From Desulfatirhabdium butyrativorans DSM 18734 (lineage in GTDB: Bacteria > Desulfobacterota > Desulfobacteria > Desulfobacterales > Desulfatirhabdiaceae): DNA of 64,000 nucleotides. Location: assembly GCF_000429925.1 (NCBI RefSeq), contig NZ_AUCU01000016.1:1-64000 (forward strand), written 5' to 3'. The notes beneath the pieces were generated by a model. That model was given only the letters and a program-made list of their open reading frames with translations. It did not search any database and was not told where the DNA came from. Position 1 is the stretch's first letter. The number at the start of each line of letters is the position of its first letter. The position numbers and the translations under genes are program-made. Below are positions 342 through 11,646 of the stretch, piece by piece.

Positions 342-1688
342 CTACGCGACGCCATATTCCTTGAGCCTGCGCCACAGGGTGGTGCGGGGAACACCGAGGA
401 TGTGCGCCGTGAGGTTCCGATTCCGGTTGGTTTTTTCGAAGACCGACAGAATATAGTTGCGGGTGACTTCCTCGAGGTTGGGCAGCTCGTCTCCGTCGGG
501 AAGCTTGTTGAATTCGAGCTGCTGCAAATCGACCGGAAGGTCCGCCGGCTGAAGCAGATGGGTATCGCTCAGCGCAACGGCCCGCTCGATGATGTTTTTG
601 AGCTCCCGGACATTTCCCGGGAAATTGTAGGAAAGCAGCAGGTTCATGGCTTCACGGGAAATCCCCTGAACCGACTTTCCGAAAGCGCGGTTGTAGCGCT
701 GGATGAAATGGTTGACGAGAAGCGGGATGTCGTCTTTCCTCTCGAGAAGCGTCGGCATCCGGATCATGACCACATTCAGCCGAAAGAAGAGATCTTCCCG
801 GAAATTGCCCAGTTCCACCTCCTGTTTCAGATCGCGGTTGGTGGCCGCAAGGATACGGATATCCAGAGCGATGGGCTTGACGCCTCCCACCCGGTAAAAC
901 CATTTTTCCTGGATGACCTGAAGCAGCTTGACCTGCATGGCAAGAGGCATTTCCCCGATTTCATCAAGGAAAACCGTCCCGCCGTTTGCCGATTCCAGCA
1001 GGCCGATCTTCACGGAGTTGGCCCCGGTGAATGCGCCTTTTTCATAGCCGAAAAGCTCGCTGTTGATCAGCTCGGCCGTGAATCCGCCGCAATTGAAGGA
1101 TACGAAAGGCGCATGCCTTCGGGGACTGAGCGCCCGAATCGCCCGGGCAACCAGCTCCTTGCCGGTTCCGCTCGGGCCCTGGATCAGCACGTTGCAGTCA
1201 ACGGCGGCCACTTTTCGAATGAGCTCGAAAATCTCCTGCATGGCCTTGCCGGAGCCGACGATCTGCTCGATGGACTCCTTGTCTTCCATCGCCTCCCGCA
1301 GGCTCCGGTTTTCCGCTCGCAGCACGACTTTCTCCAGAACGCTGTCGGCAATGCTCCGGATCTGTTTCAGGGAAAACGGTTTGGCGATGAAATGGTAGGC
1401 GCCCTGCTTCATCGCTTCCACAGCCGTTTCGATGGATGCGTATCCCGTCATCATGACGACTTCGGTTTCTTCGGAAAGGGCCTTGATCCGGCTCAGCACA
1501 GCCAGGCCGTCCATGTCCGGCAGGCGGATATCGAGCAGGACAAGATGGAACGGATTTTCCTGATGCTCTTTCAAGAAGGGCTCTGCGGCAGGGTACACGC
1601 TGACGGATCGGGAAGGCGTTTCCAGTGTCCGTTTGAGTCGATCCAGAATGATGGTTTCATCGTCGACGACGGCGATGCGTTCGCTCAT
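342..1688 (-). CDS. Sigma-54-dependent response regulator (NtrC family)
   Basis: 448 residues with the classic three-part layout. A receiver domain (about 4-118) carries acidic residues D9/D10 and phospho-acceptor D53 in [17 protein letters not shown]+ domain (about 140-380) carries Walker A GPSGTGKE (171-178) and an intact GAFTGA loop (218-223) that contacts sigma-54. A Fis-type helix-turn-helix ends the protein ([20 protein letters not shown]). It should bind upstream sites and open sigma-54 promoters when phosphorylated. The ATG at 1688 overlaps the stop of the upstream histidine kinase by 4 bases, so the two are translationally coupled and almost certainly a cognate pair. Signal and regulon are unknown; the paired upstream sites at 8286 and 8375 are candidate targets. 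Confidence 0.95.
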
Positions 1689-3127
1689 GGTTTTTGTCCT
1701 GATGCAGTGACCGAATCGCTTGGCGCGACCGGCAGGTAAATGGAAAATGTAGTTCCGACATTCAGTTCGCTTTGCACTTCGATGTGTCCGTTGTGCTTTT
1801 TGACCAGGGCATAGGTTACCGATAACCCAAGGCCGGTTCCTCTGCCGACACTTTTCGTCGTATAGAACGGCTCGAAGATGTGTTCGAGCTGTTCCGGTTT
1901 GATGCCGGTACCGGTGTCCTTTACATCGATGCGGATCTGGCGGTTGTCGGGTTCAAGACCGGCTTTCAAGTCGATTTCGCCCCCCTGCGGCATGGCCTGA
2001 ATGGCATTGAGAAAGAGATTCAAAAAAATCTGCTCCAGGTTCCGGGTATTGCCCATGATTTTCGGAAGCCCTTCCTCGATGGCCGTATTGACCTTGATGC
2101 CGGAAAGAAACGTCTGGTTGCGGACCAGACGGATCGTCTTCTGGATGACCTCCGCCAGATCGAGCGGCGCCATGACAGGCATCTCGCTTCTGGAAAAATC
2201 CAGCAGGTTCTTGATGATTTCGGCTGCGCGCTCGGCCTGGTTCAGCATGTCGAGGATGAGCTCCCGGCCTTCCGGCGTCATGCTTTCCTCATATTCTTCC
2301 AGAAAGGTTTCTGCCGTCAGGGAAATGTTGTTGATGGGGTTGTTGAGTTCATGGGCGATGCCTGCAGTGAAGGTGCCTATGGCCGCAATTTTGCGGGACT
2401 GCACCAGCTGCTCCTGCTTGGATTCCAGCTCGATGGCCATCTGGTTGAAGGCATGGATCAACCGGGAAATCTCGTCCGTTTCCTTCTCGGAATAATCGAT
2501 GGGATGGAAATTGCCGTCAGCCACCTGACCGATGGTCCGCTGAACCAGGGAAAGGGGCCGAAGAATCTTTCGGAAAAACAGGTATCCTACCAGGGCGAAG
2601 AGCACCAAGGATACGCCGAAAAAGGCGATTGGAACCCCCAGCATCCGGTTGACGGCCAGGTGGATTCGCTCCCGCTTGCGTTTGACCAGGTGTTCCGCAA
2701 AATCGCCGATCCGCTTGCCCATGTTTCGAACCTGGTCCGCCTGCCCCTGGGGCAGGTTCTGAAGTTCCTGCTGTTCGGCAAACTGCAGAATGGTGCGGTA
2801 TGTCGTCCAATCCTCACGAAACTGGCTGTATTCTTCTTTACCGATTACCCGAACGATGTCTTCGCTGCACTGGGCGATGATCGTTTCGATGCGGTCGAGA
2901 TAGACGAGGTTTTCTTTCAGGCTTTCGATGTCATGATAGAAGAAGAAATTCTTTTCGTAGCGCCTCGCTTCCAGAATGTCGTTGAACAGATCCTCGAAGG
3001 ATTCGCTGACCGTGAGCTTCTGACCGATGGTGACGATGCTGTACCAGTTGAAGAAGGCCAGGCCGAACACGAAGATGAAAAATCCACAAAAAGCGCCGAT
3101 CAAACGACCTCGAATGGTTGTCACCAT
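1685..3127 (-). CDS. Sensor histidine kinase, HAMP-containing
   Basis: Partner kinase of the regulator that overlaps its 3' end. The ATG at 3127 is preferred over a TTG seven codons earlier because GGGAGA sits six bases upstream of it; this gives 480 residues. Transmembrane segments are at about 9-30 and 165-187, bracketing a periplasmic sensor of about 130 residues; HAMP follows (188-240). The H-box GIAHELNNPINN has phospho-accepting H259. N-, G1- and G2-boxes follow (NLFLNAIQAM, DTGTGI, GRGTGLGLS). The sensor begins with an ARRYEKNFFFY stretch that is also found in the second kinase of the cluster (RRYEKNVLLYG), so the two sensors are likely paralogues reading related signals. Confidence 0.95.
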   Translation of the reverse strand: MVTTIRGRLIGAFCGFFIFVFGLAFFNWYSIVTIGQKLTVSESFEDLFNDILEARRYEKNFFFYHDIESLKENLVYLDRIETIIAQCSEDIVRVIGKEEYSQFREDWTTYRTILQFAEQQELQNLPQGQADQVRNMGKRIGDFAEHLVKRKRERIHLAVNRMLGVPIAFFGVSLVLFALVGYLFFRKILRPLSLVQRTIGQVADGNFHPIDYSEKETDEISRLIHAFNQMAIELESKQEQLVQSRKIAAIGTFTAGIAHELNNPINNISLTAETFLEEYEESMTPEGRELILDMLNQAERAAEIIKNLLDFSRSEMPVMAPLDLAEVIQKTIRLVRNQTFLSGIKVNTAIEEGLPKIMGNTRNLEQIFLNLFLNAIQAMPQGGEIDLKAGLEPDNRQIRIDVKDTGTGIKPEQLEHIFEPFYTTKSVGRGTGLGLSVTYALVKKHNGHIEVQSELNVGTTFSIYLPVAPSDSVTASGQKP

Positions 3128-3151
3128 GAATTGTCTCCCGATAATCAAAAA

Positions 3152-4501
3152 TCAGGCCATCCCGTAGCGTTTGAGCTTCCGCCACAGGGACACCCGGTCG
3201 ATGCCCAGTATTTCCGCTGCCCGGGTCTTGTTGTCTTCGGTTTGCTCGAGCACCCAGGCAATGTAGGTTTTCTCGTTTTCCTCGAGCGTTTGAAAGCCGC
3301 GTTTGGGCATCCGGATATTGCGGGTAAGGGTCCGGATATCCTCCGGCAGCTCCCTGACGGTAATCGTATCGTCTTTTGCCAGCGCGACCGCCCTTTCCAT
3401 GAAGTTTTCCAGCTCCCGGACGTTTCCGGGAAATTCGTAGCTCAGCAGAATCTCCATCACCTCATCGTCGATGGCCGCAACATTCTTGCCTTGGGCCACC
3501 GAAAACCGGCGCAGAAAATGCAGCGCCAGAAGCAGAATGTCATCTTTTCGGTCTGCAAGCCTCGGTACAAAAAGCGAAATGACATTGAGGCGGTAAAAGA
3601 GATCCTGCCGGAATCGGCCCTGAGCCGCCTCCTGTTTGAGATCCTTGTTGGTGGCTGCGATCAGCCGCACATCCACCGGAATTTCGACCGTGCCTCCGAC
3701 CCGCAGCAGCACCCGCTCCTGGAGCACCCGCAGGAGTTTGACCTGCATCGACAGGGGCATGTCCCCGATCTCGTCCAAAAACAAGGTTCCCCCAGAGGCG
3801 GTCTCGATCAGCCCTTTCTTGAGATTTCTGGCTCCGGTAAAAGCGTCCTTTTCATGCCCGAACAATTCGTTTGCCAGCAGCTCTTCGTTGAACGCACCGC
3901 AATTGATGGCAACGAAACGTTTGTCCGCCCGCAGGCTTTTGGCGTGAATGGTTCGAGCGACCAGTTCCTTTCCGGTGCCGGTCTCCCCGAAAATCAGAAT
4001 ATTGCAGTCCGTCGGTGCCACCTGATCGATGGTCTGACGCAGTTTTTCGATTTCGCTGCTGTTGCCGATCAGGCTCAGTTGCTGGGAACTTTCGGTGATC
4101 TGTTTGCGCAGGGACTGTACTTCAGCCTTGAGCGACCGCTTCTCCATCGCCTGGCGGACCTGCGCCCGCATCTCTTCGATCTGATAGGGTTTGGCCAGAT
4201 AGCTGAATGCGCCCGATTGCATGGCCTGAACGGCGGACTGCACCGTGGCGTATCCGGTAATGACGATCACCTCGATATCCGGATAGAGCTGTTTGGCCGC
4301 CTGCAGAACCTCGATGCCCCCGACCGGCTGCATTTTCAGATCGGTCATCACCAGGGCGAATTCGCGTTTTCGCAGCTCTTCGATGGCCAGTTGCCCGTTC
4401 TCCACCGAAACGACATTGTAGCCGTCCTTCAGCAGCACGTAATGCAGGTTGTCGCGGGCAATGGTTTCGTCTTCGGCGATTAGAATCCAGCCTTCTTTCA
4501 C
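3152..4501 (-). CDS. Sigma-54-dependent response regulator (NtrC family), DAFTGA variant
   Basis: 449 residues: receiver (phospho-acceptor D54 in LVMTDLKMQPVGG), AAA+ domain with Walker A GETGTGKE (172-179), and C-terminal Fis-type helix-turn-helix ending LWRKLKRYGMA. The start is a GTG at 4501 that overlaps the stop of the kinase gene upstream. The sigma-54-contacting loop reads DAFTGA (219-224) where the family consensus is GAFTGA; the first Gly tolerates change better than the rest of the loop, so the protein may still activate. It is a paralogue of the regulator at 342-1688 and lies 24 bases before the second kinase gene, so the arrangement is kinase-regulator-kinase-regulator, probably from a duplication. 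Confidence 0.94.
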   Translation of the reverse strand: MKEGWILIAEDETIARDNLHYVLLKDGYNVVSVENGQLAIEELRKREFALVMTDLKMQPVGGIEVLQAAKQLYPDIEVIVITGYATVQSAVQAMQSGAFSYLAKPYQIEEMRAQVRQAMEKRSLKAEVQSLRKQITESSQQLSLIGNSSEIEKLRQTIDQVAPTDCNILIFGETGTGKELVARTIHAKSLRADKRFVAINCGAFNEELLANELFGHEKDAFTGARNLKKGLIETASGGTLFLDEIGDMPLSMQVKLLRVLQERVLLRVGGTVEIPVDVRLIAATNKDLKQEAAQGRFRQDLFYRLNVISLFVPRLADRKDDILLLALHFLRRFSVAQGKNVAAIDDEVMEILLSYEFPGNVRELENFMERAVALAKDDTITVRELPEDIRTLTRNIRMPKRGFQTLEENEKTYIAWVLEQTEDNKTRAAEILGIDRVSLWRKLKRYGMA

Positions 4502-5952
4502 GTCGCACTTCCTTGACCGGCGTCCGTGATCGGTAAAAAGATCGTGAAACAGGCCCCGGCATCCTCGCGGTTTTCCACATGGATGGATCCGCCATGCTGC
4601 TCCACGATGCCGTATACCATTGAAAGCCCGAGCCCCGTTCCCTTTCCGACATCCTTGGTGGTGAAAAACGGATCGAAAATCCGGCCGATCGCCTCGGGCG
4701 CGATGCCGGGGCCGCTGTCAACGACGGTGACTACAGCCTGTTTGCCGGCAGGATCGATCTCTGCCGAAATCCGGATCCAGCCGGGGCTCTCTCCGATGGC
4801 ATGTACTCCGTTTTCGACGAGATTCAAGAACACCTGCTGCATCCGCTGGCTGTCGAGGTTCAGCACCAGGGTCTCCGGCACTTCCTGCAGGATTTCGATG
4901 TGCGGCGGAACCTGACTGGAAATCAACCGGACGGATCGTTCCACAATGGATTTCAGGGGTGTAGGCAACAATTGGAATTCCTTGGCCCTGGAGAATTCGA
5001 GAAGCCCGCGTACAATGTCTCTGGCCCGGTGCACCTCCTGGGTGATATTTTGCAGCATCCGGTTCAGGAATTCCGTATCGCCGCCCTTGAGCTCTTCGAT
5101 GGCGATCTGGCAGGAGGTCGAAATATTGTTCAGCGGATTGTTCAACTGATGGGCGATACCGGAGGTGAGTGTCCCCAGGGAAGCCAGTTTTCTGGCCTCA
5201 ACGAGCTGCTCCTGGCGTTTTTCAAGTTCCGCGATCATCCGGTTGAATGCCTCGATCACCTGCTGAGTCTCATCCCGCAGGTGCACGACCGGTGCAGGCC
5301 GGAAATCCCCTTTGGCGATGCGGTGGGTGGTCTGCTCGATCAATCGGAGCGGCCGGATGATTTTTCGGGCAGCAAAGGGGATGAGGATGACCCCCATCAG
5401 AAAAAAGACGATCATGGAAAAGATCAATTGTCCTTTGAGGCTTCGGATGATGACCAATATCCGCTGACGTTCGAAACTCACCAGTTCCTGCGCCAGATCG
5501 ACCAGAACTTTTCCGCTTTCTCGAAGCTGCTCCTCGATATGCGGAATCGGGGCTGGCGTTTTCTGCTTGCGATGGGCAATCACCTGCTGCATCAGCATGT
5601 CATAGCGCTCGAGCTCCCGTTCGATGCGGGTCAGAAAGCTCGCTCCCTTGAATTCACGGACATCGGGTGTGATGTCTTTCACCAGGCGCATGCTTTGGAG
5701 AACGTATTTTTCGTTCTCCGCCATGTCGTCCTCCGACCCGTAGAGCAGCACATTCTTTTCGTAGCGGCGAATTTCGAGAATGATGCTGTTCAAATCATCG
5801 GCGGTCTCGACAAAATGTTCCTTGTATTCGATCTCCAGCAGGTACCGATATGAAATCATGCCGATGGAGCCGATGATCACCATGACGATGGTCAGACCGA
5901 CAACGATTTTCTGGCGGATATTGAGGTTCAGGGACATGCGTGGAATGTTCAT
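4498..5952 (-). CDS. Sensor histidine kinase, HAMP-containing
   Basis: 484 residues. AAGGATAAACG precedes the ATG at 5952 and supports the start. An N-terminal membrane helix (about 14-36) and a second at about 174-196 flank a periplasmic sensor; a HAMP linker follows (197-250). The H-box is GIAHQLNNPLNN with H268. ATP-binding boxes NLVENGVHAIG, DSGPGI and GKGTGLGLSMVYG complete the kinase core. The gene overlaps the regulator downstream by 4 bases. The sensor shares the RRYEKN motif with the kinase at 1685-3127. Sensor ligand unknown. Confidence 0.95.
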   Translation of the reverse strand: MNIPRMSLNLNIRQKIVVGLTIVMVIIGSIGMISYRYLLEIEYKEHFVETADDLNSIILEIRRYEKNVLLYGSEDDMAENEKYVLQSMRLVKDITPDVREFKGASFLTRIERELERYDMLMQQVIAHRKQKTPAPIPHIEEQLRESGKVLVDLAQELVSFERQRILVIIRSLKGQLIFSMIVFFLMGVILIPFAARKIIRPLRLIEQTTHRIAKGDFRPAPVVHLRDETQQVIEAFNRMIAELEKRQEQLVEARKLASLGTLTSGIAHQLNNPLNNISTSCQIAIEELKGGDTEFLNRMLQNITQEVHRARDIVRGLLEFSRAKEFQLLPTPLKSIVERSVRLISSQVPPHIEILQEVPETLVLNLDSQRMQQVFLNLVENGVHAIGESPGWIRISAEIDPAGKQAVVTVVDSGPGIAPEAIGRIFDPFFTTKDVGKGTGLGLSMVYGIVEQHGGSIHVENREDAGACFTIFLPITDAGQGSAT

Positions 5953-6131: not shown

Positions 6132-8207
6132 CTATTGCATTTCCAGAACGACGTCGATCAGTGTTTGGATATCCTCTGCCAGAACAATCTCGATGCGTTC
6201 GAGCATTTCCCGATCCATTCCGGCCAGATCGACGGCATTGGCCTTCGGAATGATCACGGTGGCCACACCCGCCCGCTGGGCTGCAAGAAGCTTCTCCCGG
6301 AGTCCTGCGATCTGCAGGATCGTCCCGCTTAACGTGAGTTCTCCGGTCATGGCTACTGCCGGCTTTGCAGGGCGGCGGGTCAACAGGGAAAGGAGTGCCA
6401 TGGCAATGGTCAGGCCTGCAGAGCTGCCTTCCTTGGGAATGGCTCCCGCCGGGATGTGGATGTGAATGTCCCGATCCTGGAAAAAATCGGGATCGATTCC
6501 GAGAATTTCGGCATGGCTTCGCACATAGCTCAGCGCCGTCTGGGCCGATTCCCGCAGGATATCCCCGAGGGATCCGGTCAGCAGAAGCTGCTCCTTTCCC
6601 TTCATGATGCCGGCTTCCACCGAAATGATCTCCCCCCCGAATTCCGTCCACACCAACCCCGTCACCACACCGATGCGGCCGGCCGTCTCGGCGCTCATGT
6701 GGTTGTACCGCCTCGGTCCCAGAAACTGCACGACCATCTGCTCATCGACCCGAATCGGCTTTGCGGGCTCGGCATCGTCTGCTTTCGATGCCTGATCCGG
6801 CTGTTGCCCCCCTGCCCCGCTTTCCTGCAGCAGGCAGATCCGGGCCAGTTTCCGGCATACGGCGGCGATCTCTCTTTCCAGGTTCCGCACCCCGGCCTCC
6901 TGGGTATAGTCCTGGATCAGTCGGGAAACGGCCTCTTCGCTGAACCCGATTCCCCGGTTCGTGAGGCCATGCTCCTGCAATTGCCTCGGAATCAGATAAC
7001 GAAAGGCAATCTGCCGCTTTTCCGTTTCTGTGTAACCGGTGAAGGCAATGACTTCCATGCGGTCTCGCAGGGCGGCGGGCAGGTTTTCGATGCCGTTGGC
7101 CGTCGTGATGAAGAGAACGGCGGACAGATCGAAGGGCAGATCGAGGTAGTGATCCGTAAAATGGCTGTTCTGTTCCGGATCCAGAATTTCGAGCAGGACA
7201 GAGGCGGGATCTCCGCGGAAATCCTGTCCGATCTTGTCGATTTCATCGAGCATGAAGACCGGATTTCGGGCGTTGACCCTTCGGATTTCATTCAGAATCC
7301 GGCCGGGCATCGCCCCGACGTACGTCCGGCGGTGCCCCCTCAGATCCGCCTCGTCCCGGAGCCCCGCAACGGAGACCCGAACGAACGGCCTTTCGAGCGA
7401 TTCGGCGATTGATCGTCCAATGGATGTCTTCCCGGTTCCCGGAGGCCCGGTGAAACAGAGGATGGGGCTTCTGCCGCATTGCAGGGCGCGTTTTCTGCCC
7501 CGGATTTCCCGGATCGTCTCCCGCAGTTCGTCCAGATTGATCGGTTTCGGCAGATAGTGGGTGGCGCCTTTCTTGAGGGCGGCCACGGCCGAGTTGACCG
7601 TCGCATACCCGGTGATGAGAACGATGTCCGTCCTGGGGGATATTTTCCGGGCGGTCTCGAGCAACTGGAAACCATCCATCTTTTCCATTTTCATGTCCGT
7701 CAGGATGAGATCGAATTCCTGGCTTTTCATCCGCTCCAGGGCTTCGAGTCCATTTCCCGCCGTATCAACCCGGTATCCTTCCTTTTTCAGGACATATTCC
7801 AGATTGGTCCGGGCGATCGGTTCATCGTCCACGATCAGAATGAAAAAATCGCGCATGCTGCACAGGGTCCGGACCGCCAGGTATTCGAGAATGCGCTCCT
7901 TGACCTGTCTGAGGCCGTGATGCTGGGATTCCATCACCCGCTCCGCCTGGTTCAGGTCGATGTGGATGTCATGTACTGTGTTCCAGGGCAGGCTGAGAAT
8001 CAAATCGATATAGTTCAGACCGATGGCGTATTCGGGCGCGGAAGGATCGGTTTTCTCCAGACGTTCGAGCTCGGCCATGGCGGCAGCGGCAATCGGTGCA
8101 GGCAGGGCGGCCTGCTGAATTTTCTGATGCAGCGCCGATGGCGTTTCGTTCGATTCCGTGGTCTGCGGGGCAGGTTGCTCCCGCTGCTGGGTTTTCTTGA
8201 AAAACAT
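6132..8207 (-). CDS. Lon-type ATP-dependent protease with an internal response-regulator receiver domain
   Basis: 691 residues from the ATG at 8207, chosen because AAAGGA lies about ten bases upstream; a longer frame to 8300 has no such site. The large N-terminal substrate-binding domain of Lon is absent. Residues 40-113 match the helical segment just before the ATPase (HHGLRQVKERILEYLAVR). A complete receiver domain follows (about 121-240; FFILIVDDEP, phospho-acceptor D171, KP pair at 221). The Lon ATPase then resumes (Walker A GPPGTGKT 254-261, Walker B FMLDEIDK). The Lon protease domain has Ser596 in EGSSAG and Lys639 in GLREKLLAA, the Ser-Lys dyad. The receiver therefore sits in the linker where canonical Lon has a few residues, as if phosphorylation gates proteolysis. 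It heads the kinase/regulator cluster; one kinase may be its donor (inference). Confidence 0.93.
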   Translation of the reverse strand: MFFKKTQQREQPAPQTTESNETPSALHQKIQQAALPAPIAAAAMAELERLEKTDPSAPEYAIGLNYIDLILSLPWNTVHDIHIDLNQAERVMESQHHGLRQVKERILEYLAVRTLCSMRDFFILIVDDEPIARTNLEYVLKKEGYRVDTAGNGLEALERMKSQEFDLILTDMKMEKMDGFQLLETARKISPRTDIVLITGYATVNSAVAALKKGATHYLPKPINLDELRETIREIRGRKRALQCGRSPILCFTGPPGTGKTSIGRSIAESLERPFVRVSVAGLRDEADLRGHRRTYVGAMPGRILNEIRRVNARNPVFMLDEIDKIGQDFRGDPASVLLEILDPEQNSHFTDHYLDLPFDLSAVLFITTANGIENLPAALRDRMEVIAFTGYTETEKRQIAFRYLIPRQLQEHGLTNRGIGFSEEAVSRLIQDYTQEAGVRNLEREIAAVCRKLARICLLQESGAGGQQPDQASKADDAEPAKPIRVDEQMVVQFLGPRRYNHMSAETAGRIGVVTGLVWTEFGGEIISVEAGIMKGKEQLLLTGSLGDILRESAQTALSYVRSHAEILGIDPDFFQDRDIHIHIPAGAIPKEGSSAGLTIAMALLSLLTRRPAKPAVAMTGELTLSGTILQIAGLREKLLAAQRAGVATVIIPKANAVDLAGMDREMLERIEIVLAEDIQTLIDVVLEMQ

Positions 8208-8285
8208 CGTGCGCTTATCCTTTCTGTGCATTCGAACGGCATCTCCGAAAGGGAGCATCCAACATGGAACAGCCCGTTCGGGTGC

Positions 8286-8305
8286 TGCAATCTGCAACAT
8301 GTTGC
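8286..8305. promoter_or_regulatory. Upstream activator-type site, copy 1
   Basis: TGCAATCTGCAACATGTTGC contains the perfect palindrome GCAACATGTTGC. A second copy lies 89 bases further on with 17 of 20 identical positions. Palindromes of this kind, 100-250 bases before a sigma-54 promoter, are typical binding sites of NtrC-family activators. Which regulator binds is not shown; two candidates are encoded at 342-4501. Confidence 0.6.
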
Positions 8306-8374
8306 GTTTTTGGTGTAATAATCGAAAGCGGGTTCCATTTCAACAAGATATGCAAGCCCTCCCTTTGGGAACGT

Positions 8375-8394
8375 TGCAATATGTAACAGGTTGC
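8375..8394. promoter_or_regulatory. Upstream activator-type site, copy 2
   Basis: TGCAATATGTAACAGGTTGC, 17 of 20 bases identical to copy 1. The differences fall in the inner half-site, so copy 2 is the weaker palindrome. It lies about 118 bases before the sigma-54-like promoter. Confidence 0.55.
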
Positions 8395-8623: not shown

Positions 8624-9397
8624 ATGAATGCAATCCAGAATCCAACGCAGCAGGCGGACATTCGACCGGAAAAGCGGAAGATCCTGGTGCTGAGCGCCGA
8701 TCACCAATTCCGCAGCGAACTGGTCACCCATGCCGTGCATCTTGCCGAACGCATGGATTACGGCATTTATGCGGTCAACGTCAACACGGAAAACAACAAG
8801 GGACCTTTCCGGATGGCTTCCGAACTTTCCTGGCTGCAATTGAAGGCCTATGCCGAAACACTGGGCATCGATTGCAGCCACAGCGTTCGTGATGGGTCCT
8901 TCAAGGACGCCATCGAGGCGATCCGCTCAGAGGTTCGCCGCATCGAAATGATCGTCACGGATACCGAAATTCCCGAACATTTGAACGGGTCGGATCTATC
9001 GATTCCGATCGTCAACGTCATTTCAACCCCCAGAAACGGAAAAGGAGAAAAGATCATGGCAACCCATTCCCCAACATCGAGAAGCAAACACTGGATCCCC
9101 GCCGTTGGTTTCGGATTGGCGACGGCGGCCCTCTATACGGCCGTATTCATGAATGCGGGCACCGTAATGTCCTATTTCACCCGTGGAGGCTGGTATGCGG
9201 CAATGCCCATTGCCACGGTGTTTGTCGTCTCCTACATTCACGGTTCGTTTGCCAGCCATCTGTGGTCCCTTCTCGGTATCGAAGCCATGAAAAAAGACGC
9301 CCTGCGCAAAACCGAAAAAGCCGTCGTGGCGAAAAAGCGGGCTGTCGCCAAAAGACCTCGGGCTTACGCACACATCAATCCGTTTCACAATATTTGA
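8624..9397 (+). CDS. Usp-like protein fused to a small membrane protein
   Basis: 257 residues. Residues 18-133 have the pattern of a universal stress protein fold (KRKILVLSADHQFRSELVTHAV..., ending SIPIVNVIS) but lack an obvious ATP-binding GxxGxxG motif. Residues 145-257 form a second module with two membrane helices (about 156-178 and 187-205) and a very basic C terminus (KKRAVAKRPRA). An internal ATG at 9056 is in frame and is preceded by AAAGGAG with eight-base spacing, so the membrane module may also be made on its own. It is the first gene of an operon with the TauE/SafE permease. The precise role is unknown; it may be an accessory subunit of the exporter. Confidence 0.8.
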   Translation: MNAIQNPTQQADIRPEKRKILVLSADHQFRSELVTHAVHLAERMDYGIYAVNVNTENNKGPFRMASELSWLQLKAYAETLGIDCSHSVRDGSFKDAIEAIRSEVRRIEMIVTDTEIPEHLNGSDLSIPIVNVISTPRNGKGEKIMATHSPTSRSKHWIPAVGFGLATAALYTAVFMNAGTVMSYFTRGGWYAAMPIATVFVVSYIHGSFASHLWSLLGIEAMKKDALRKTEKAVVAKKRAVAKRPRAYAHINPFHNI

Positions 9398-9451: not shown

Positions 9452-9590
9452 GAAAAGTGGATGACTTCTATGTTTATCAGCGGGGGCGGCGTCCCCCGCA
9501 AAGATCCTTGATGACGGAAAGAACATCTTCATATACGGAATATGCCGGGTACCCTGGTGAAGGGGTCGCCCATTGAAAGGAGATACAAGC

Positions 9591-10655
9591 ATGCATGACA
9601 TCGTACAGCAATCGGCCAACTTCATTGATCTGAACGCCCTGTCCATCACATTTCTGTTTCTGGTGGGCTTTATCGGAGGGCTTGTCAGCGGGTTTATCGG
9701 CTCCGGCGGCGCATTTGTACTCACCCCGGGTATGATGAGCCTTGGCGTGCCGGGAACCGTGGCTGTCGCCAGCAACATGTGCCACAAATTCCCCAAGGCC
9801 ATGGTCGGCGCCATCAAACGGTTCAAATACGGCCAGGTGGACCTGAAGCTCGGTATCGTGATGGCCATCTCGGCAGGCGTTGGTGTTCAGGCGGGCATTC
9901 GGCTCCAGCAGTGGATCCTGAGTACATGGGGTCAGGCCGGATCGAATCTCTATGTCAGTCTGAGCTTTGTGGTGGTGCTGGTCGTCGTCGGCGGCTATGT
10001 CTTCAAGGATGCGTTGAAATCGAGCGGAACGGACGGCGCGGACAAACCGGCGGGCCTGGCGAAAAAACTTCAAGGCATTCATCTGCCGCCCATGATTCAC
10101 TTCAAAAGGGCAAATGTTACCATCAGCCTGTGGTTCACCGTTCCTGTCGGGTTTGCCACCGGCATGCTGGCTGCTACGATCGCCGTTGGCGGATTCATCG
10201 GCGTGCCCGGCATGATGTACGTGGTCGGCGTAGGTGGGCTGATCTCATCGGCAACGGAGCTGGTCATTGCCTTTCTGATGGGTCTTGCTGGTTCCATCAA
10301 CTGGGCCATGCACGGCATGGTCGATATCCGGCTCGTGCTGATCATCCTGGCCGGATCGCTTCTGGGTGTGCAGCTTGGCGCCATCGGAACGACCTATGTC
10401 AAGGAAAGCATGATCAAGGTCGTCATGGCCACCATCATGCTGATCGTTGCCGTCAGCCGGGCGCTGGCCGTCCCGCAGTATCTTGTCCAGTTGAACCTGA
10501 TGCATCTCGAACAGAATACCATTGACATTTTGGGCAAAATCAGTTTCGTTATCATGTGTATCGCGCTTCTGGTCGGCGCATCCATCATCCTGGGGGCCAT
10601 GTGGAAAGCCAAACGGGCGGAAATGCTTCTCGATGAAGGCATTGAAACGGCCTGA
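9591..10655 (+). CDS. TauE/SafE family sulfite/organosulfonate-type exporter
   Basis: 354 residues from the ATG at 9591; a TTG 18 bases earlier would place the AAAGGAGA ribosome site inside the gene. Two halves of hydrophobic helices each carry the family signature: GFIGGLVSGFIGSGGAFVLTPGMMSLGVP near the N terminus and ATGMLAATIAVGGFIGVPGMMYVVGV in the middle. A soluble loop of about 45 residues separates the halves. The family moves sulfite, sulfoacetate, taurine and related anions across the inner membrane; the substrate here is unproven. It is sandwiched between two Usp-type proteins and overlaps the next gene by 23 bases. Confidence 0.9.
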   Translation: MHDIVQQSANFIDLNALSITFLFLVGFIGGLVSGFIGSGGAFVLTPGMMSLGVPGTVAVASNMCHKFPKAMVGAIKRFKYGQVDLKLGIVMAISAGVGVQAGIRLQQWILSTWGQAGSNLYVSLSFVVVLVVVGGYVFKDALKSSGTDGADKPAGLAKKLQGIHLPPMIHFKRANVTISLWFTVPVGFATGMLAATIAVGGFIGVPGMMYVVGVGGLISSATELVIAFLMGLAGSINWAMHGMVDIRLVLIILAGSLLGVQLGAIGTTYVKESMIKVVMATIMLIVAVSRALAVPQYLVQLNLMHLEQNTIDILGKISFVIMCIALLVGASIILGAMWKAKRAEMLLDEGIETA

Positions 10656-11646
10656 ACATCTCTGGGTCGGTATCAACGGAAAAGCATCGGGCTATCATGC
10701 CTTGAAAGAGGCCATCTCGATAGCCCGATGGCTGCATGCAAGCGTCACGGCCATTGCCGTGGCGCCGCTGTATGAAGGGGATCTCGATCTTACCGGTGTC
10801 GGATCGGTCCGGAACAACCTCTACACAGACATCGAGACATCCCTCGGTTGCGCACTCGACATCGCCGATGAGCTGCACTATCCTGTCCGGATCGCTGCAG
10901 CAGGCGGCGATGTGTGCGATCAACTCCTTGAACAGGCTATCGACTCCCCTCAAACCGGCTGGATTGTCATCGGTGCAGGCCAATCCTTCTCGGCGCTTCG
11001 ATGGCTCGCCGGAACACCGCTTCTATCCATCTTCACCCACTCTCCCCTGCCTGTTTTGATCGTACCCGAAAAAACCGCCGTTTCCGGAGAAGCGGTTTGG
11101 CTCGATCTGGACCGAATGGAGCTGGATTCCGGATCGGCAGCGCTTTTTCTGGAAGGCTGGATCGAATCGTCCCTGCAGATAGCGGCATGGTTTGGCGTGG
11201 ATCGGCTGATGATCGCCCGCCCGGAAGACTTTCCGGACGGACGTCTGCTGCGGAGCATCCTCTCGGAACGGCAGGAGAAACGAACGCTTCATGATGCATC
11301 CGGAAATAAAGCCCTCTTGTCCATTGAAGCGGTTGATTTTCCCTACAGAGATACGAAGGACATTTTTTCGGCCATGGAAGGCAGCCCTCCCGCCCTGGTG
11401 CTGATCCCCCGGATTTCTTCCGGAACGCTGAATACAGCAGCGCCGGGTCCCAGCCTGAGTTTCAGGGTAAAATCCATTTTGGGGCTGCCATTCGGGCAAC
11501 CAGGCCAAAGCAACGGGATAATCCGCTTCCCCGGAAAATGCCGTTTTTCAATGGCAGCCTGGCATACCGAAAAACGCCTTCGTGCCCTGCCCTGTCCGGC
11601 CCTCATTCTTACCGGAAGCGTGTGTCCGGAAGAAAACCCATCCTGA
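10633..11646 (+). CDS. Tandem universal stress protein-type protein
   Basis: 337 residues from an ATG at 10633 inside the end of the permease gene; the longer frame from 10522 is only overlap. Residues 9-145 match a Usp domain (LWVGINGKASGYHALKEAISIARWLHASVTAIAV, then WIVIGAGQ and a SPLPVLIVPE end strand). Residues 150-337 look like a diverged second Usp domain ending in CPALILTGSV. The second half has lost recognisable nucleotide-binding residues. Co-transcription with the exporter suggests a regulatory or energy-sensing role for transport (inference). Confidence 0.8.
   Translation: MKALKRPEHLWVGINGKASGYHALKEAISIARWLHASVTAIAVAPLYEGDLDLTGVGSVRNNLYTDIETSLGCALDIADELHYPVRIAAAGGDVCDQLLEQAIDSPQTGWIVIGAGQSFSALRWLAGTPLLSIFTHSPLPVLIVPEKTAVSGEAVWLDLDRMELDSGSAALFLEGWIESSLQIAAWFGVDRLMIARPEDFPDGRLLRSILSERQEKRTLHDASGNKALLSIEAVDFPYRDTKDIFSAMEGSPPALVLIPRISSGTLNTAAPGPSLSFRVKSILGLPFGQPGQSNGIIRFPGKCRFSMAAWHTEKRLRALPCPALILTGSVCPEENPS

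Follow-up and report, generated by a model that had tools for sequence, protein, structure and literature searches.

A Lon-type protease with a receiver domain inside its AAA+ module, encoded beside histidine kinase and sigma54-type regulator genes in Desulfatirhabdium butyrativorans

The DNA analysed here, referred to as the window, is a stretch of 64,000 nucleotides from Desulfatirhabdium butyrativorans DSM 18734 (contig NZ_AUCU01000016.1, positions 1 to 64,000). It contains a gene for a Lon-type protease that carries a receiver domain (REC), and we call the product REC-Lon. The start assigned to REC-Lon matches the MxFF start of its homologues. Downstream, on the same strand, are the genes for two histidine kinases and two response regulators, in the order HK1, RR1, HK2 and RR2; these four are tightly packed. 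Transcribed in the other direction are a TauE/SafE-type transporter gene, a gene for a Usp-like protein, and a gene at 8624-9397 that had no match to any curated family. The region also includes two palindromes and a sigma54-like promoter. Features of the locus are listed in Table 1.

Table 1. Genes, protein domains and regulatory elements of the REC-Lon locus (nucleotide positions are those of the window).
Feature	Position	Strand	Evidence and remarks
REC-Lon gene, 691 aa	6132..8207	-	Start codon ATG at 8207; stop codon ends at 6132; no internal stop
Lon helical segment, aa ~21-115 (three-helix bundle and helix preceding AAA+ b1)	7863..8147	-	BLAST against homologues; AlphaFold2 helices 23-118
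Receiver domain (REC), aa 123-233, candidate phosphoacceptor D171	7509..7841	-	Pfam PF00072 Response_reg, E 9.7e-32
AAA+ ATPase, aa 250-390	7038..7460	-	Pfam PF00004 AAA
Lon AAA+ lid (Lon_lid), aa 411-462	6822..6977	-	Pfam PF22667
Lon_C S16 protease domain, aa 487-688, S596/K639 dyad	6144..6749	-	Pfam PF05362, E 7e-75, 251 bits
HK1, HAMP-containing histidine kinase	4498..5952	-	Pfam; co-located in homologous loci
RR1, sigma54-type (NtrC-like) response regulator	3152..4501	-	Pfam; REC is reciprocal best paralogue of Lon REC
HK2, the second histidine kinase in this run of genes	1685..3148	-	Pfam; HK2-like gene adjoins REC-Lon in locus L139
RR2, second sigma54-type response regulator	342..1688	-	Pfam
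Divergent gene, weakly Usp-like N-terminal part and hydrophobic C-terminal part	8624..9397	+	Pfam Usp E 0.08, below cut-off; homologues in same place
TauE/SafE-type anion transporter	9573..10655	+	Pfam PF01925, E 1.2e-35; kept beside REC-Lon
Usp-like protein	10582..11646	+	Pfam Usp E 0.0014, below cut-off
Palindrome GCTGCAATCTGCAAC	8284..8298		One mismatch to GTTGCA-N3-TGYAAC
Palindrome GTTGCAATATGTAAC	8373..8387		One of two places in the genome matching GTTRCANNNTGYAAC
Sigma54-like promoter TGGTACGATTCTTGAA	8512..8527	+	Directed at Usp-like gene; comparable sites recur at homologous loci

REC-Lon scores 698 bits with the NCBIfam model TIGR00763 (lon), for which the cut-off is 608. The Lon N-terminal substrate domain, however, gave no Pfam match in REC-Lon even at E ≤ 5, and the homologues are just as short. 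By its domain content, REC-Lon is a truncated, Lon-derived protein and not a full LonA. The catalytic residues have been retained. No substitutions occur among 32 REC-Lons at D171, K260 (Walker A), E322 (Walker B), S596 or K639, and the S596/K639 dyad is invariant in 101 Lons. All motor residues examined, namely the Walker A and B, N371, R383 and R441 columns and the pore-loop residue Y296, are the same as in canonical Lons. Within the receiver, which resembles those of the NtrC family, D128, D171 and K221 are invariant among the 32 proteins. D127 occurs in 31 and T199 in 30, the other two having serine. The acidic pair D127/D128, together with D171, T199 and K221, shows the REC to be catalytically complete at the level of sequence. 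These results confirm what a preliminary description of the locus, made from the DNA letters, had observed. It had placed a receiver between the Lon helical segment and the ATPase, in agreement with the order of Pfam matches and the alignment of homologues. It had also noted the absence of the substrate domain and that the Walker motifs, Ser596 and Lys639 look intact; the residues it named, D171, S596 and K639, are correct.

The position of the receiver can be defined more closely. In 69 canonical Lons, the gap between the helix ending 'EYLAVR-L' and the strand 'GPILCF', which runs to Walker A, has a median length of 6 residues. The same gap measures 132 residues in all 32 REC-Lons. Since the 'EYLAVR' helix is the one just ahead of AAA+ strand b1, the REC lies inside the AAA+ module and not merely before it; the alignment shows the site to be between this helix and b1 itself. 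The constant size of the insert favours rigid, functional coupling. Structure prediction, which the preliminary description had put forward as a check, gave a confident AlphaFold2 fold for a single, unphosphorylated chain (pLDDT 90.4, pTM 0.86, using 101 sequences). Note that an alignment of only 32 sequences modelled the AAA+ part poorly (mean pLDDT 72), and that this was remedied by the deeper one. In the model, a helix (residues 100-118) leads into REC b1 (122-126). REC a5 (225-245) is followed, three residues later, by AAA+ b1 (249-253). Compared with hexameric LonA (4ypl), the model gave a Z score of 32.9 and an rmsd of 2.5 Å for 523 aligned residues. We infer that the a5-to-b1 joint of the model may act as the signal carrier. 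A sequence search of the PDB returned no solved REC-Lon structure.

A search for other proteins with the order Lon helical segment, REC, AAA+ and Lon protease, also proposed at the outset, identified 31 from other assemblies. Each has the same junctions and the 132-residue insert. A frameshift or assembly error at the junctions had been named among the findings that would undo the description. Such an artefact, or a fusion, is ruled out; the frame is open and the junctions are shared by 31 independent homologues. Scanning of contigs yielded eleven full-length relatives (51-63% identity), with record labels that include Syntrophales, Syntrophobacteraceae, Desulfomonile, Desulfobacterales, Desulfobacula and Nitrospirae, among others. 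The domain order is also present in genomes of the D. butyrativorans family. In a homology search with the helical/REC/AAA fragment (E ≤ 1e-60), 81 of the 389 class genomes and 49 of the 395 phylum genomes gave matches. Most of these genomes had a single match, and a few matches span just part of the fragment. REC-Lons are thus common; roughly one in five of the class genomes sampled has one. In a tblastn search for plasmid-borne REC-Lon, the matches listed spanned no more than 86% of the query, split over two pieces; those with an annotation were ordinary Lons.

We also built a tree from the AAA+ and protease regions of the 32 REC-Lons and 69 canonical Lons, with REC columns excluded. All REC-Lons are on one side of a single branch of this unrooted tree, with an SH-aLRT value of 94, slightly below the 95 mark. 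This arrangement is compatible with a single origin. The host genome has four Lon-type proteases, REC-Lon included. The other three have full Lon_C scores and come from different parts of the Lon tree. Given these three proteins, REC-Lon is accessory.

Neighbouring genes are often conserved. Of 30 distinct homologous loci, 19 have an RR1-type regulator, in most cases together with HK1, and 14 have the divergent Usp-like/TauE pair; several of the loci without one or the other are cut at contig ends. In one locus (L139, 11374-14195), an HK2-RR2-like pair directly follows REC-Lon, at the position taken by HK1-RR1 elsewhere. The receivers of REC-Lon and RR1 are close relatives. In the genome, which gave 56 REC matches counting the Lon REC, the REC of RR1 is the latter's best paralogue (110.7 bits, compared to 94.3 for the next), and the reverse comparison returns the Lon REC. 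In two further genomes, where one direction was compared, the neighbouring RR1-type REC is likewise the best paralogue of the Lon REC. Within a locus, the Lon REC and the RR1-type REC are mostly 45-54% identical. In two-component systems, kinase choice is set by the first helix of the REC, and this helix is alike in the Lon and RR1 receivers (DE-IAR-NL-YVL in the window). Since the two receivers are best paralogues in three genomes, a shared kinase is likely, and HK1 is the likely kinase for both. HK2 may also signal to REC-Lon, or be its kinase.

The two palindromes are upstream of REC-Lon; across the whole 4.48 Mb genome, GTTRCANNNTGYAAC has just two matching places. Upstream of REC-Lon genes, GTTGCA-N3-TGCAAC is matched with one mismatch or none at 39 sites, compared to 0.06 expected from Markov-resampled sequence; these counts are not independent, given the relatedness of the loci, and some of these loci are where the pattern first came to notice. 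In 22 of 31 distinct loci, the palindromes form a pair spaced by 85-90 bp, or about 8-8.5 helical turns. This near-constant spacing, in loci of different families, is striking. We consider the palindromes to be putative RR1 sites. Because the sigma54-like site in the window is, by itself, within chance (25.0 compared to a 95% shuffle level of 25.8), the case for it lies wholly in the recurrence of similar sites at homologous loci. For the promoter of REC-Lon itself, no sigma54 site was consistent across homologous loci.

The architecture of REC-Lon is not new; it has been on record since at least 2011. The preliminary description did not recognise it as a characterised one, and its interpretation is supported in part. 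In its passages on DVU3303 of the sulfate-reducing Desulfovibrio vulgaris, a 2011 paper describes a response regulator "containing a lon protease" that, with the kinase DVU3304 and the sigma54 regulator DVU3305, forms a "three-component system" (PMC3333781). The same passages already suggest a phosphorylation switch for DVU3303. They give the DVU3305 targets as its own operon and DVU3302-3298, and the general form of its motif as inverted repeats of 4-6 bp, 3-8 bp apart. A sigma54 study from 2015 lists DVU3305 with the same targets (PMC4641369). Genetic data followed in 2023. Briefly, a transposon study found DVU3303-3305 to be detrimental in chlorate, with pairwise cofitness >0.9, and DVU3299, a putative anion transporter and DVU3305 target, to be important in the same condition (PMC10102598). 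The signs are puzzling. Loss of DVU3303-3305 helps, yet a target is needed, and an activator role alone does not explain this. Note that the cofitness could partly stem from polar insertions, the three genes being neighbours. Literature searches found no REC-Lon biochemistry.

We favour the view, with a probability of roughly 70%, that REC-Lon is a response regulator with a Lon-type ATP-dependent protease as its output, of the DVU3303 type, driven by HK1 and switched by phosphorylation. With a built-in REC and a likely kinase adjoining, REC-Lon is probably signal-switched. Our hypothesis that the switch is phosphorylation is reasonable in view of the catalytically complete REC, the adjoining kinase genes and the rigid conservation of the insert. 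In outline, HK1 would phosphorylate RR1 and the Lon REC together, and a stress signal would alter transcription and proteolysis. Phosphorylated RR1 would bind the paired palindromes and activate the divergent Usp-like and TauE genes via sigma54. The least certain steps concern REC-Lon itself. Here, phosphorylation of D171 might move REC a5, which is nearly continuous with AAA+ b1 and Walker A, and this shift might alter ring assembly, ATPase activity or substrate engagement. The REC would then stand in for the missing substrate domain, determining the timing of degradation and perhaps the choice of substrate. Our guess is that phosphorylation activates, rather than inhibits, the protease. The substrate is less likely to be RR1 itself than a factor that acts negatively in this pathway. 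As to whether aspartate phosphorylation of a receiver embedded in the AAA+ module gates a Lon motor, while one kinase sets both transcription (via RR1) and degradation (via REC-Lon), we would offer even odds.

The same components could instead end a response, if phosphorylated REC-Lon degraded RR1, HK1 or the Usp-like products. REC-Lon, RR1, HK1 and the Usp-like genes are indeed in one locus with a common regulatory region, and Lon is known to degrade regulators, for example HrpG in Xanthomonas. However, D. vulgaris mutants lacking the protease, kinase or regulator are alike and not opposite (cofitness >0.9, PMC10102598), and while polarity could mask a difference, we think such negative feedback unlikely. 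Equally doubtful, in our estimation, is a REC that serves mainly as a phosphate sink, or as a docking platform for HK1 or RR1, attached to a protease that is active whatever its phosphorylation state. The Lon REC so closely resembles the neighbouring RR1-type REC that it should compete for the kinase, and it could recruit substrates in place of the lost N-terminal domain. Nonetheless, an insert of 132 residues in every REC-Lon exceeds the need of a loosely tethered sink, and the protease dyad is fully conserved.

Agreement with canonical Lons, at all motor and protease residues examined, is also what one would expect of a plain housekeeping Lon in which the REC insertion is neutral. We give this very little credence. 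The genome encodes three further full Lon_C proteins, both the gene neighbourhood and the cis elements of REC-Lon are conserved and, as strong counter-evidence, so are the active-site residues of the REC.

If the phosphorylation switch is real, a protease is wired directly into two-component signalling and one kinase governs both transcription and proteolysis. A candidate switch residue, an insertion site and a likely partner kinase are now defined. Since D. vulgaris provides a genetic system, the 2011 proposal is directly testable. What is new here, from comparison of sequences, is the insertion site with its constant insert length, the kinship between Lon REC and RR1 REC in three genomes, and the paired palindromes.

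By layout, and by the predicted function of neighbouring genes, the window very probably contains a DVU3303-type system, DVU3303 being known here by its description. In both cases, REC and Lon protease are combined in one protein, and a histidine kinase and sigma54 regulator are adjacent. Both also have a neighbouring membrane/Usp-type operon, for which the TauE match in the window is significant and the Usp matches are weak and below cut-off. In D. vulgaris, this operon is situated upstream and controlled by the regulator. Unlike the D. vulgaris system, the operon in the window has an extra kinase-regulator pair, HK2-RR2. With canonical LonA (family S16; E. coli, B. subtilis and Meiothermus), REC-Lon shares the helical segment, AAA+ module, lid, Ser-Lys protease and catalytic residues. 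It differs in lacking the N-terminal substrate domain and in having the 132-residue, REC-containing insert ahead of AAA+ b1. A Lon whose activity is altered by phosphorylation has been described in Xanthomonas citri, but that protein is an ordinary Lon, without a receiver domain, and phosphorylation of Ser654 is inactivating (PMC5784255). As in NtrC-type regulators, where the REC is known to control the ring, REC-Lon has a REC beside an AAA+ ring. The ring, however, is a Lon protease motor rather than a sigma54 activator, and the REC is inserted rather than N-terminal.
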